Shown: piece by piece, positions 16,105 through 20,526 of the stretch | Position numbering within the stretch: the first letter of the stretch is position 1 | Layout: every line of letters starts with the position of its first letter | NCBI RefSeq assembly: GCF_027946175.1 | Contig: NZ_AP026671.1 | Coordinates: 1 to 64,000, forward strand | DNA length: 64,000 nt | Direction: 5' to 3' | Source: Nitratiruptor tergarcus DSM 16512 | GTDB lineage: Bacteria; Campylobacterota; Campylobacteria; Campylobacterales; Nitratiruptoraceae | Position numbers and translations under genes: made by a program | Notes under the pieces: generated by a model | Told to the model about the DNA's origin: nothing | Seen by the model: the letters and a program-made list of their open reading frames with translations, nothing else | Database searches by the model: none

Positions 16105-16921
16105 ATTAGAAAAACTTGCATATAGACTCATAAAAAAAGATTATCCTCTTGAGCAGTTTTATGCTCTTTTACAATCGATTTTTGGTTTGACCGAAGATCC
16201 TGAGCTACTCTACCAGACACTTCTTGCACGAGGATTTCCTCTAGCTCAAAAAGATGATCACATTCTTTTAAAAACTGCAAAAACCCCTTTTTTAAAGCAG
16301 GAGTTTGTAGTAGTCGATATTGAAACCAATGGAAGCAAACCTGAGTTTTCACAGATAATTGAGATTGGGGCGATAAAGTTTCAAGGAAGTGAAATTATTG
16401 ATCGTTTTGAAAGTTTTGTCTTTGCTGAAGAGGTACCAGAATATATTACCAAACTAACAGGTATTGAGCTTGATGACCTGGCTCACGCTCCTGGTCAAAA
16501 AGAGGTCTTGCTAGCATTTAAGAAGTTTTTGGGTGATAGCGTATTTGTAGCCCATAATGTCAATTTTGATTACAACTTTATCTCACGAAAATTGGAACAG
16601 TTAGGCTATGAGAAACTAGCAAACAGGAAGCTCTGCTCTATAGATCTTGCAAGAAAAACAATTCAAAGTGAGCGGTATGGTTTAGAGTACCTCAATGAAA
16701 ATCTTGGTATTAATACACTTGTGAGTCACCGCGCCTATGCAGATGCTTTTACAGCATACAAGCTTGTACAAATGGCATTGGAGAAGATTCCAGATGAAAT
16801 TATTACTACTGAAGATCTGATTAAATTTAGCAAAAGTGCAAAAAAGACAAAAAAAGCTACAAAAGCCTCTGAATCAACTTCGCTCCCAGCAGATCTCCCC
16901 AGTTGTTCACAGCAGTCCTGA
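16097..16921 (+). CDS. dnaQ: DnaQ-like 3'-5' exonuclease
   Basis: 274 residues from TTG 16097, overlapping trpF. Exonuclease motifs: ExoI 'FVVVDIETNGSKP' (Asp73, Glu75), ExoII 'VFVAHNVNFDYNFI', ExoIII 'HRAYADAFTAYKL' (His and Asp). An N-terminal ~65-residue helical region is extra compared with E. coli epsilon. The Lys/Ser-rich tail (KKTKKATKASESTSLP) overlaps by 65 bases the convergent symporter gene, so the last ~20 residues are constrained by it. Likely the replicative proofreading subunit or a related repair exonuclease. Confidence 0.85.
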   Translation: MNKLEKLAYRLIKKDYPLEQFYALLQSIFGLTEDPELLYQTLLARGFPLAQKDDHILLKTAKTPFLKQEFVVVDIETNGSKPEFSQIIEIGAIKFQGSEIIDRFESFVFAEEVPEYITKLTGIELDDLAHAPGQKEVLLAFKKFLGDSVFVAHNVNFDYNFISRKLEQLGYEKLANRKLCSIDLARKTIQSERYGLEYLNENLGINTLVSHRAYADAFTAYKLVQMALEKIPDEIITTEDLIKFSKSAKKTKKATKASESTSLPADLPSCSQQS

Positions 16922-18053
16922 ACATATCCAAAAAGCGATCAACTGTAATAATCAGTGCAATTGACTCAACTGGCAGTCCTACGCTATCCAGCACCATCGT
17001 CATCATAATAAGACCTGCTCCAGGAATGCCGGCTGCTCCGATAGAAGCGAATGTAACGGTGATAAAGATAGTAATTTGCTGTGCTAATGTGAGCTCAACT
17101 CCGCTTATATTTGCAATAAACATTACTGCAATCGATTCATACAGTGCCGTGCCATCCATATTGATGGTAGCTCCAAGAGGCAGTACAAATCCTGCTACTT
17201 TTTTACTTACTCCTCCCTTTTCTTCAGCAACTTCAAGACTTACAGGAAGTGTAGCAGAGCTTGAAGCAGTAGAGAATGCTATGAGCGGAGCCTCTTTGAT
17301 CTGTAAAAAATATTTGTAGGGATTAAACCTTCCAATAAAAAAAGCAAGTACAGGTAGTATAAGAAGCGCATGGATTGCAAGGGCAGCTAAAACAGTAAGC
17401 ACATAGCTATAGAGATTGAATATAGGATCTAATCCATTTTTTGCAACAGTTGCAGCGATGAGAGAAAAAACACCTATTGGGGTTAAAGTGATTATCCATT
17501 TTGCAAGGACCATCATTGCATCATTGACACTATCAAAGAAGTTGTACAAAGTTGTGCGCTTTTGCTCTGTTATAAAGAGTGCTCCTACTGCAAAGAGGAT
17601 TGTAAAAAAGATAATGGGTAAAATCGCACCTTTACTGAGAGCTGTAAAAATATTTGCTGGGATAAAAGAGAGTAAAAAGTCGTTAATACTTAGATCTTTG
17701 TGTTCTACCGAGAAATTTGAAGGTAGTTGCAGCAGATGCTTTCCCGCTCCTGGATTAAAGAGATGAAAGATAAAAAGCCCTAAAATTACCGCTAATGCAG
17801 TGGTTGTAAGATAGTATGCAAAGGCTTTGATTCCGATAGATTTGAGCTCCTCTTTGCCACTGAGAGAAGTTATTGCAATAAAAATTGAAGCAAATACAAG
17901 AGGAATGATGAGCATTTTTAAAAGCTTGAGATAGATATCGCCAATGACTTTGAGATCTAGCGAGAGTACAGGAAAAAAGTAGCCAAAAGCGATACCGGCA
18001 AAAATTGCAGCAATAGTGAGGTTCTCTACATTTAAAAGCTTTTTATGAGCCAT
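16857..18053 (-). CDS. Sodium/proton:dicarboxylate (or glutamate) symporter, DAACS family
   Basis: 398 residues, about eight membrane segments plus two re-entrant loops. Family hallmarks are clear: the serine-rich hairpin 'AFSTASSSATLPVSLE', the 'NMDGTALYESIAVMFIA' segment and the 'DRFLDMFRTAVNNWGD' motif near the C-terminus that holds substrate and Na+. Imports C4-dicarboxylates or acidic amino acids. It follows, with a 22-base overlap, the deformylase-like membrane protein. Substrate cannot be decided from the sequence. Confidence 0.9.
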   Translation of the reverse strand: MAHKKLLNVENLTIAAIFAGIAFGYFFPVLSLDLKVIGDIYLKLLKMLIIPLVFASIFIAITSLSGKEELKSIGIKAFAYYLTTTALAVILGLFIFHLFNPGAGKHLLQLPSNFSVEHKDLSINDFLLSFIPANIFTALSKGAILPIIFFTILFAVGALFITEQKRTTLYNFFDSVNDAMMVLAKWIITLTPIGVFSLIAATVAKNGLDPIFNLYSYVLTVLAALAIHALLILPVLAFFIGRFNPYKYFLQIKEAPLIAFSTASSSATLPVSLEVAEEKGGVSKKVAGFVLPLGATINMDGTALYESIAVMFIANISGVELTLAQQITIFITVTFASIGAAGIPGAGLIMMTMVLDSVGLPVESIALIITVDRFLDMFRTAVNNWGDLLGAKLIQRLL

Positions 18054-18823
18054 GATCCTCCATAGAGCACTACAATAACAGCCAAATAGATTGCACTGGT
18101 ACCAAATACATTGGCCCCTTGACAGGATGTACAGTTTTTATATTTTGTTGTCTCATATTTTGCATAGAGCGCATAAAAAATAAGCCATGCAAATTCAAGT
18201 ATAAAAAGAGGGGTATTGTACGAGAGAACAAACTTTGCAAAGTTTGCAAAAAGTGCAAATATAAGTAAAACAAAGTGGCTAACTAGAAAGAGACGCAAAG
18301 CTGTAAGGATCTTATCTTTGACAAAAGAGGTAGGGCATGTATCACCGTAGCTGCCATACTCTTTAAAAAACTTTTTTTGCTCCTTTTTTGAGAGCTTATC
18401 AAACAGATAACCACCAAATATCATGTCGATTTTTCGCTGCAAAAGTACGGCTTCATCATCTTTCGCAGTATAAAATTTTTGATTTCCCTCTCTATCTTCA
18501 TACATGATTTTTATAACAGGGTAGCGATTAACGGTTACTTCTATGTTTGGTAAACTCTCATCACTCTCGGTTGAAGCAAAGTATTTTCCTTCTTTGCCAT
18601 AAATGACAGGATTTATCATCACTTCATAATCATCATCTTTTTTGAGCACTATTATTCTTAGAGGTATGCCAATTTGTATAGCTGCAAGTGCTTGGAGACT
18701 GTTTTCTTCAATTGTCTTTTTCATCTCATCAATAATCTGCACAAGATTTGGATCTTTGAAATCTCTTATTAGCCCAGAAATTTGTAAAAGCGTATGATCA
18801 GGATAGGTGAGAATTTCTGCCAT
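18032..18823 (-). CDS. Degenerate peptide deformylase fused to a membrane domain
   Basis: 263 residues. Residues 1-150 align by eye with peptide deformylase, but every catalytic motif is altered: GxGLAAxQ is 'LQALAAIQIGIP' (43-54); EGCLSxP is 'ESDESLP' (86-92), with Asp88 for the metal-binding Cys; and QHExDH is 'QRKIDM' (129-134), with Arg, Lys and Met replacing His, Glu and His. 'GGYLFDKLSKKEQKK' keeps the fold's end. Residues about 170-263 have three hydrophobic segments and a Cys-x-x-Cys (231, 234). No deformylase activity is expected; a sensor or scaffold role is speculative. Coupled to the symporter gene. Confidence 0.75.
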   Translation of the reverse strand: MAEILTYPDHTLLQISGLIRDFKDPNLVQIIDEMKKTIEENSLQALAAIQIGIPLRIIVLKKDDDYEVMINPVIYGKEGKYFASTESDESLPNIEVTVNRYPVIKIMYEDREGNQKFYTAKDDEAVLLQRKIDMIFGGYLFDKLSKKEQKKFFKEYGSYGDTCPTSFVKDKILTALRLFLVSHFVLLIFALFANFAKFVLSYNTPLFILEFAWLIFYALYAKYETTKYKNCTSCQGANVFGTSAIYLAVIVVLYGGSWLIKSF

Positions 18824-18840: not shown

Positions 18841-18863
18841 AAGGGGCAAAAGCCCCTTTTTTT
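18841..18863. terminator. GC-rich hairpin between deformylase-like and 58-aa genes
   Basis: AAGGGGC (18841-18847), loop AAAA, GCCCCTT (18852-18858), then a T-run to 18863. The T-run suits plus-strand termination, yet both flanking genes are on the minus strand. There it follows the 58-residue gene's stop immediately and would end that transcript without a U-run. Confidence 0.5.
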
Positions 18864-19038
18864 AGTGGTGAGATTTAGAAACGACTGCGAGCATTTTGAG
18901 GTTAATAACGATGAATCTAATGAACTGCCAAATTTTGCACGTTCTAAGAAATTTTTGAAAAGGCCCTGGAATCAATGTTCCATACGTCTTACCATCATAA
19001 GGTTTGATGTTTTTTTGAATCTCTTTAAAATCTGCCAT
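18862..19038 (-). CDS. 58-residue conserved-looking protein beside the SQR-like gene
   Basis: Starts MADFKEIQKNIKPYDGKTYG with ribosome site AAGGAGAAA on the minus strand, 12 bases after the SQR-like gene's stop. Contains 'LIPGPFQKFLRTCKIWQF' and a hydrophobic C-terminal half 'IRFIVINLKMLAVVSKSHH', which could be a membrane-associated helix. Composition and ribosome site support a real gene. I do not recognise the family. Position suggests it helps the SQR-like enzyme, for example in membrane attachment (inference). Confidence 0.7.
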   Translation of the reverse strand: MADFKEIQKNIKPYDGKTYGTLIPGPFQKFLRTCKIWQFIRFIVINLKMLAVVSKSHH

Positions 19039-19050
19039 AATTTCTCCTTT

Positions 19051-20526
19051 TTATTCAGGGATGAGTGTCCATCCAGGTTTGAGCTGCGCCTTCCACATAA
19101 ACATATAGTGGAGGATATGTTTGATCCAGTGTCCTGCAAGACCGATTTCACCAAAAGTGTAGTCTGGATCACGACCAGTTCCTGGGAATCTGTCATAATC
19201 AGGTACAACAGGATAAACGGTCAATGCTACTGCAGAACCATTCATGAGGCTCTTTCCAGTTGAAGCAACACACGCCGCACCCATCTCTGCCATAGAGGCA
19301 TGGTGACCTTTCTCTTTTACCTCTTCGAGGCTATATTTGCCGTTAATTACCTCTGTGATAGTTTGCGCAACAGTTTTACCAATAATTCCTGAAGGCATAC
19401 CTGTTCTTGGAGGTGCTGGTGTGATTGGCGTGCCATTTACAGATTTTGCTGGTTTACTAATTGGATGAGGCGGTGCAAATGCGATACCTACTGCAAACAT
19501 ATTGAGGTAATCTGGGTTTTGATAATATTTTGGCCAGTCACTTGCTTTCCACTCTTCAAACGGTTTTGGAGTGTAGTCTGCATCTACCTTCATGAAACCA
19601 TTTGGTGCGAAAACTTTATCAGTGATGTCATTACCAGCTTTGTCGTATGCTTTTAGACCTACACCACTAAATGGAGGAATAAGCATTGCAAAATCAAATG
19701 TCTCTTCTCCTTCTGTTCCATCGAGAAGTTCATATTGCAGTTTTCCTTTTTGTACCTCTTTGACATGTGCTCCAGTGATCCAGTCAACGCCACGCTCTGC
19801 AAAGAGTGACTCAGCTAAAACTTTAGAGCTAACAATATGTCCACCCCATTTGATATGAAGACCTGCAACACCAAAGTCTCCGAGGAACTGCTCGTTAGAG
19901 ATCCACTTGATTTCTGCTTTATCTCTTACGCCTGCTTCTCGAAGCTCATGCTCGATGTTGAAGATATATTCAAATGCAGCTCCCTGACATGTACACATAC
20001 CGTGTCCAGTACCGATGAGGAATTTTACTTTTTCCCCTTTTTTCATACGCTCAATTGCATTTTGAAAATGGGTATTTGCTTCTGCCGCATGGAGATATGT
20101 ACAGACTGAGAGTGAATTACCTTCGTCTGGTCCAAGTCCCGGAGTTGCAGCGAAGTTGAGCTTTGGACCTGTGGCATTGATAAGGTAGTCATACTCTACC
20201 TCTTCAGTCTGTCCAGCTTTGTTTGGATCGGTATATTCGATTGTAACGTAAGGTCTGTCACTTCCCTCTTTTCCTTCTGGATGGATAGAGACAGCTTTAG
20301 CTTGTTTAAAATCGATTCCAGCTTTTTGATAGACTGGCGCAAGCTCAAATACAACATCTTCTGGTGCCATTTCACCAACACCAACCCAGATGTTTGATGG
20401 AATCCAGTTCCATTTACTGTTTGGAGAGACAACTACTACTTCATGTTTGTCTCCAAGCCAGTGTTTAGCAAAAGTAGCAGCAGTATGTCCAGAAACACCT
20501 GCTCCTAACACAACAATTCTTGCCAT
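19051..20526 (-). CDS. FAD-dependent sulfide:quinone oxidoreductase-like protein
   Basis: 491 residues. N-terminal FAD-binding 'IVVLGAGVSGHTAA' (Gly8/10/13); second half of the fold 'YDYLINATGPKLNF' near 113-125; 'FLIGTGHGMCTCQGAAFEY' near 169-187 with a Cys-x-Cys; 'GMPSGIIGKTVAQTITEVI' near 395. The C-terminus is aromatic and may touch the membrane. The overall pattern fits SQR/flavocytochrome-c-type enzymes, longer than type I SQR (about 430). Probably oxidises sulfide and passes electrons to quinone, but another sulfur substrate is possible. Co-transcribed with the 58-residue protein. Confidence 0.78.
   Translation of the reverse strand: MARIVVLGAGVSGHTAATFAKHWLGDKHEVVVVSPNSKWNWIPSNIWVGVGEMAPEDVVFELAPVYQKAGIDFKQAKAVSIHPEGKEGSDRPYVTIEYTDPNKAGQTEEVEYDYLINATGPKLNFAATPGLGPDEGNSLSVCTYLHAAEANTHFQNAIERMKKGEKVKFLIGTGHGMCTCQGAAFEYIFNIEHELREAGVRDKAEIKWISNEQFLGDFGVAGLHIKWGGHIVSSKVLAESLFAERGVDWITGAHVKEVQKGKLQYELLDGTEGEETFDFAMLIPPFSGVGLKAYDKAGNDITDKVFAPNGFMKVDADYTPKPFEEWKASDWPKYYQNPDYLNMFAVGIAFAPPHPISKPAKSVNGTPITPAPPRTGMPSGIIGKTVAQTITEVINGKYSLEEVKEKGHHASMAEMGAACVASTGKSLMNGSAVALTVYPVVPDYDRFPGTGRDPDYTFGEIGLAGHWIKHILHYMFMWKAQLKPGWTLIPE

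Follow-up and report, generated by a model that had tools for sequence, protein, structure and literature searches.

The closest described relative of the protein considered here is peptide deformylase (PDF; Pfam PF01327; Helicobacter pylori PDF, structure 2ew5), which is recognized by its fold and profile, by motif I (G-Phi-G-Phi-A-A-x-Q), by the Cys of motif II (EGCLS) and by the HExxH of motif III (QHExDH). For accessory PDFs of type 3 (inactive or weak), exemplified by those of S. aureus and S. pneumoniae, PMC12690207 describes substituted residues in motifs I and II; that they keep motif III is our reading of that paper. The second system that bears on this locus is sulfide:quinone oxidoreductase (SQR), for which type I structures are available (3hyv, 3sz0). 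Every sequenced Sulfurimonas retains a type IV SQR, a type that clusters with type I (PMC4584964). A term search returned no literature on inactive membrane PDF homologues. Neither a keyword search for work linking peptide deformylase with Sulfurimonas nor a search for a unit of SQR, small companion and pseudo-deformylase returned a report, in a literature that left subscription journals mostly outside its scope.

The window is a 64,000-nucleotide stretch of the Nitratiruptor tergarcus DSM 16512 genome (NZ_AP026671.1, positions 1 to 64,000). Within it, a gene for a PDF-like protein with a membrane tail (hereafter pseudo-deformylase) lies downstream of an SQR gene (Table 1).

Table 1. Features of the pseudo-deformylase locus, in the order of transcription
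Feature	Coordinates	Strand	Details and basis
Sulfide:quinone oxidoreductase (SQR) homologue, 491 aa	19051..20526	-	C142, C180, C419; A. aeolicus SQR 3hyv, E 1.2e-36
58-aa protein gene, unlisted	18862..19038	-	One hydrophobic/amphipathic helix, FLRTCKIWQFIRFIVINLKM
GC-rich hairpin between 58-aa gene and pseudo-deformylase	18841..18858	-	Possible partial terminator
Pseudo-deformylase with membrane tail	18032..18823	-	263 aa, ATG start; ORF, PF01327 E 2.5e-36, alignment of 22 family members
PDF-like domain, residues 1-155	18359..18823	-	D88, R130, K131 and M134 replace Cys and HExxH; alignments, domain model
Membrane tail, residues 157-263	18035..18355	-	Three hydrophobic helices, C163 ahead of the first; model, hydropathy
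C231-T-S-C234 (Cys-x-x-Cys), loop between tail helices 2 and 3	18122..18133	-	Conservation in 84 homologues
Dicarboxylate:cation symporter	16857..18053	-	PF00375; local neighbour only

The initial annotation had placed a PDF scaffold in the N-terminal 150 residues or so of this protein, with every metal ligand and the catalytic Glu replaced, and both claims held. The PF01327 profile matches residues 1-149 above its curated cut-off, and sequence comparison with H. pylori PDF returned an E value of 1.4e-13. When the protein is aligned with H. pylori PDF and with the native deformylase (def) of this genome, D88 takes the place of the motif II Cys, R130 and K131 that of the first His and the Glu in HExxH, and M134 that of the second His, exactly the substitutions that had been proposed. 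Motif II reads ESDES in place of EGCLS, motif III reads QRKIDM in place of QHExDH, and motif I (L-Q-A-L-A-A-I-Q) retains its Gln and has lost both Gly. The protein resembles PDF in fold, in a match extending over residues 1-155 and in keeping Q50, E86, Q129 and D133; it differs in that the catalytic Glu and every metal ligand are replaced, in its three-helix CxxC tail and in its genomic link to an SQR.

The same picture was obtained across 84 distinct full-length homologues. Cys88, Glu131 and His134 are each present in 0/84 and His130 in 3/84, and no other alignment of these sequences restored the metal ligands. Scaffold residues are retained (Q50 in 78/84, E86 in all 84, with D133 also kept), position 45 of motif I is Ala in 56/84 and Gly in 27/84, and R130 and K131 occur in 73 and 71 of the 84, respectively. 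The residues at positions 88 and 134 differ from family to family. On the question of whether homologues across Campylobacterota share the substitutions and the tail, the loss of the same catalytic residues and the tail cysteines are shared, whereas the replacing residues differ between families. A chance ORF or decayed gene was ruled out because the frame is open and the motifs are conserved across families.

Structure prediction agrees with the alignments. AlphaFold returned a pLDDT of 77.8 and a pTM of 0.53 for the full-length protein, and 83.8 and 0.79 for the PDF-like domain alone. With Foldseek, the 50 best PDB matches listed for each model were all PDFs (best E 2.6e-9 for the full length and 9.1e-10 for the domain), with TM values of about 0.65-0.7 among those listed. 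Details of the models should not be read closely, as the input alignment was shallow (9 sequences) and the TM values are of this order; the predicted fold is nevertheless that of a PDF, with the ligands absent. On the basis of the alignments and models, the 18032-18823 product is a predicted PDF fold without a catalytic site.

A separate, intact and putatively active def lies ~1.4 Mb away (G000:C1:1458626-1459090, E 4.6e-50), as the initial annotation had anticipated, and shares 32-35 % identity with the N-terminal part of the pseudo-deformylase. A PF01327 search of 18 genomes found a strong canonical def in 15; the three with the pseudo copy alone (G006, 82 % complete; G021, 85 %; G019, 99 %, 120 contigs) are taken as assembly gaps. 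As with the type 3 accessory PDFs, a diverged PDF here shares its genome with a canonical one; however, we did not file the pseudo-deformylase under that type, as it has also lost motif III and possesses a membrane tail. Within Nitratiruptoraceae (family f1), the window's own family, it is present in 21 of 22 genomes, the remaining one (G016) having a normal def only, and a search with a tail profile showed that other families of the class also have it. Proteins of this kind are labelled 'peptide deformylase' in genome annotation, as in Sulfurovum mangrovi. At that locus (L205, 5868-6683) two such genes are annotated because the frame is broken, reflecting either a sequencing error or a decaying gene.

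The three membrane segments and the Cys-x-x-Cys described from the sequence were both recovered in the tail. The AlphaFold model has three long helices (residues 168-190, 203-227 and 239-262), in agreement with hydropathy. C231, C234 and Q235 are invariant (84/84), and N238 (83/84) and C163 (81/84) nearly so. The loop bearing the CxxC has a net positive charge, which fits the cytoplasmic side, suggesting that the CxxC lies there. No Pfam family matched the tail above cut-off, and comparison with PDB profiles gave one insignificant match only (NrfH, E 1). In genome G233, the slot after the SQR and small genes is occupied by a 98-aa tail-only gene (L093, 5980-6276) that encodes no PDF domain, begins directly past the stop codon of the small gene and conserves the CTGC motif, indicating that the tail can stand without the deformylase domain.

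The product of 19051-20526 has the FAD-binding core and the three conserved cysteines expected of an SQR. Among 63 homologues, C142 is present in 63, C180 in 62 and C419 in 62. Its closest solved relatives are type I SQRs; by reasoning from PMC4584964, it is probably a type IV enzyme. Comparison of 40 neighbourhoods revealed a flavoprotein of ~490 aa, the SQR homologue, upstream of the pseudo-deformylase almost everywhere. Among 397 Campylobacterota genomes, the tail was found in 80 and the SQR (threshold E <= 1e-100) in 111; all 80 genomes with the tail have the SQR, and 31 have the SQR without the tail gene. A tail match in G173 (E 5.5e-4, six stops) was excluded as chance. The pseudo-deformylase gene lies directly downstream of the SQR gene on the same strand in 72 of the 80 genomes (72 of 88 copies); in the other eight, the two are on different contigs (five genomes) or ~7-8 kb apart (three). 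Fisher's test for co-occurrence gave a value of 1e-58, which is not a true probability because the sampled genomes are related and the counts not independent.

The SQR tree offers a stronger argument than this value. Presence of the pseudo-deformylase requires 4 changes on that tree against a shuffled mean of 18.4, and G016 (f1), G075 (f8) and G234 (f4), which lack it in families that otherwise have it, carry an SQR of another clade; the gene therefore tracks the lineage of the SQR and not that of the host species. The outer neighbours vary by family (pepN and a sensor kinase; ribosomal genes; polyphosphate kinase and a symporter), yet the SQR, small and pseudo-deformylase genes stay together. 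These data demonstrate strong genomic coupling of the pseudo-deformylase to the SQR. Since, among these sulfur-oxidizing relatives of Campylobacter, it occurs only in genomes with this particular SQR and usually beside that gene, the pseudo-deformylase has probably been recruited into sulfide metabolism.

Between the two genes lies the 58-aa gene, which the initial annotation had missed; along the direction of transcription, the order is SQR, 58-aa gene, pseudo-deformylase. Homologues of the 58-aa gene sit directly behind nearly every related SQR gene, including plasmid-borne SQR genes of Thiodictyon (64 % identity) and Marivivens (58 %), where there is no pseudo-deformylase. In both of these organisms, a gammaproteobacterium and an alphaproteobacterium, respectively, the small gene is annotated as hypothetical. 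The 58-aa protein has no Pfam family, and its sequence suggests a short hydrophobic protein that is probably in or on the membrane. The hairpin that follows it occupies the same gap in most related loci, though its sequence differs, and expression of the pseudo-deformylase may be lower than that of the SQR as a result. On its other side, the pseudo-deformylase gene overlaps the start of the symporter gene by 22 bases. The symporter, with which the gene had been proposed to be operonic, was nonetheless rejected as a functional partner, as the adjacency is confined to Nitratiruptoraceae among the 40 neighbourhoods compared.

Eight genomes carry a second copy of the pseudo-deformylase away from the SQR. 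Several of these have CMD/AhpD-like and MerR genes as neighbours, as do the single, displaced copies in G131 and G380 (L209, L210, L212, L217 and L220 being loci of this kind), and in two genomes (L209, L210) the copy adjoins a DsrE-family gene whose product probably has a signal sequence. The DsrE and AhpD families are associated with sulfur-transfer and thiol chemistry.

We tentatively favour a reading in which the pseudo-deformylase is an integral-membrane accessory protein of one SQR clade in free-living Campylobacterota. Under this hypothesis, a duplicated deformylase would have lost its metal site, retained its fold and become fused to the three-helix tail. The PDF domain, whose N-terminus is probably cytoplasmic given that the protein has no signal sequence, would lie in the cytoplasm and dock onto the SQR or the 58-aa companion at the membrane. 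C231 and C234, with C163, could act as paired thiols, accepting sulfane sulfur or electrons released by the SQR reaction; alternatively, the cysteines could bind a metal that serves it. The linkage speaks to coupling and not to chemistry, and we infer both the docking and the thiol or sulfane-sulfur chemistry. The DsrE-family, CMD/AhpD-like and MerR neighbours of the copies away from the SQR count in favour of an accessory role. Against it, 31 genomes and the Thiodictyon and Marivivens plasmids have SQR and companion with no pseudo-deformylase, which means that SQRs do not generally depend on it to function, and the hairpin ahead of the gene, through possibly lower expression than that of the SQR, argues against a fixed 1:1 subunit. 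It is possible, if somewhat doubtful, that the pseudo-deformylase, serving as docking head of a membrane-bound thiol module, joins the SQR and the 58-aa companion in an undescribed sulfide-oxidizing complex. On the accessory reading, an essential translation enzyme would have been turned into a component of energy metabolism that has no catalytic role. The 'peptide deformylase' annotation masks what is likely a component of sulfide oxidation in the bacteria that are dominant at hydrothermal vents and in sulfidic waters. The locus also defines a concrete set of genes with which to trace the fate of the sulfur or electrons leaving this SQR.

The main rivals to an accessory role are a sensory and an assembly function. 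As a sensor or regulator, the protein would monitor sulfide, polysulfide or redox conditions at the membrane through its cysteines, with the PDF-like domain relaying the signal. This would suit the invariant CxxC, the MerR regulators that adjoin copies away from the SQR and the sensor-kinase/response-regulator pair that follows the gene in many f8 loci; however, families f1 and f4 lack that pair, which is moreover found behind the SQR in a genome that has no pseudo-deformylase (L155), and the protein has no known output domain, making such a role unlikely. We regard as similarly improbable a role in assembling the SQR and its companion or inserting them into the membrane, in which the dead pocket would bind a protein N-terminus and the tail would act as membrane anchor. 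The retained scaffold, Q50 and E86 included, and the short hydrophobic companion, probably in or on the membrane, are what such a role would lead one to expect, but G233 keeps the tail alone and in many genomes the SQR and companion have no pseudo-deformylase with them.

Two further readings fare worse. The conservation of R130 and K131 could point to an altered site (R130/K131 with D/T88) that catalyses another reaction; given that residues 88 and 134 vary between families and that the G233 version has no PDF domain at all, we consider continued enzymatic activity very unlikely. The initial annotation had proposed that the dead domain is kept on the membrane for binding, perhaps of peptides or the translocating chain. 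Binding rather than catalysis is reasonable, and a PDF scaffold at the membrane is in keeping with it, but the linkage (80/80 genomes, 72/80 adjacent) points to the SQR. That the protein serves as a broad receptor for peptides or for chains in translocation is hardly credible, as its gene is restricted to genomes with one lineage of sulfide enzyme, is missing from most of the genomes sampled and displays no consistent link to secretion or ribosome genes.

SQR residues were also considered as marks of contact with the pseudo-deformylase: F214, G449 and others differ between SQRs with and without it, but they follow clades and were set aside. Finally, G089 encodes a second SQR of the same family (L171, 4492-5521), behind which lie a diverged small gene and, next to that, a gene for a membrane protein resembling the cytochrome b type.
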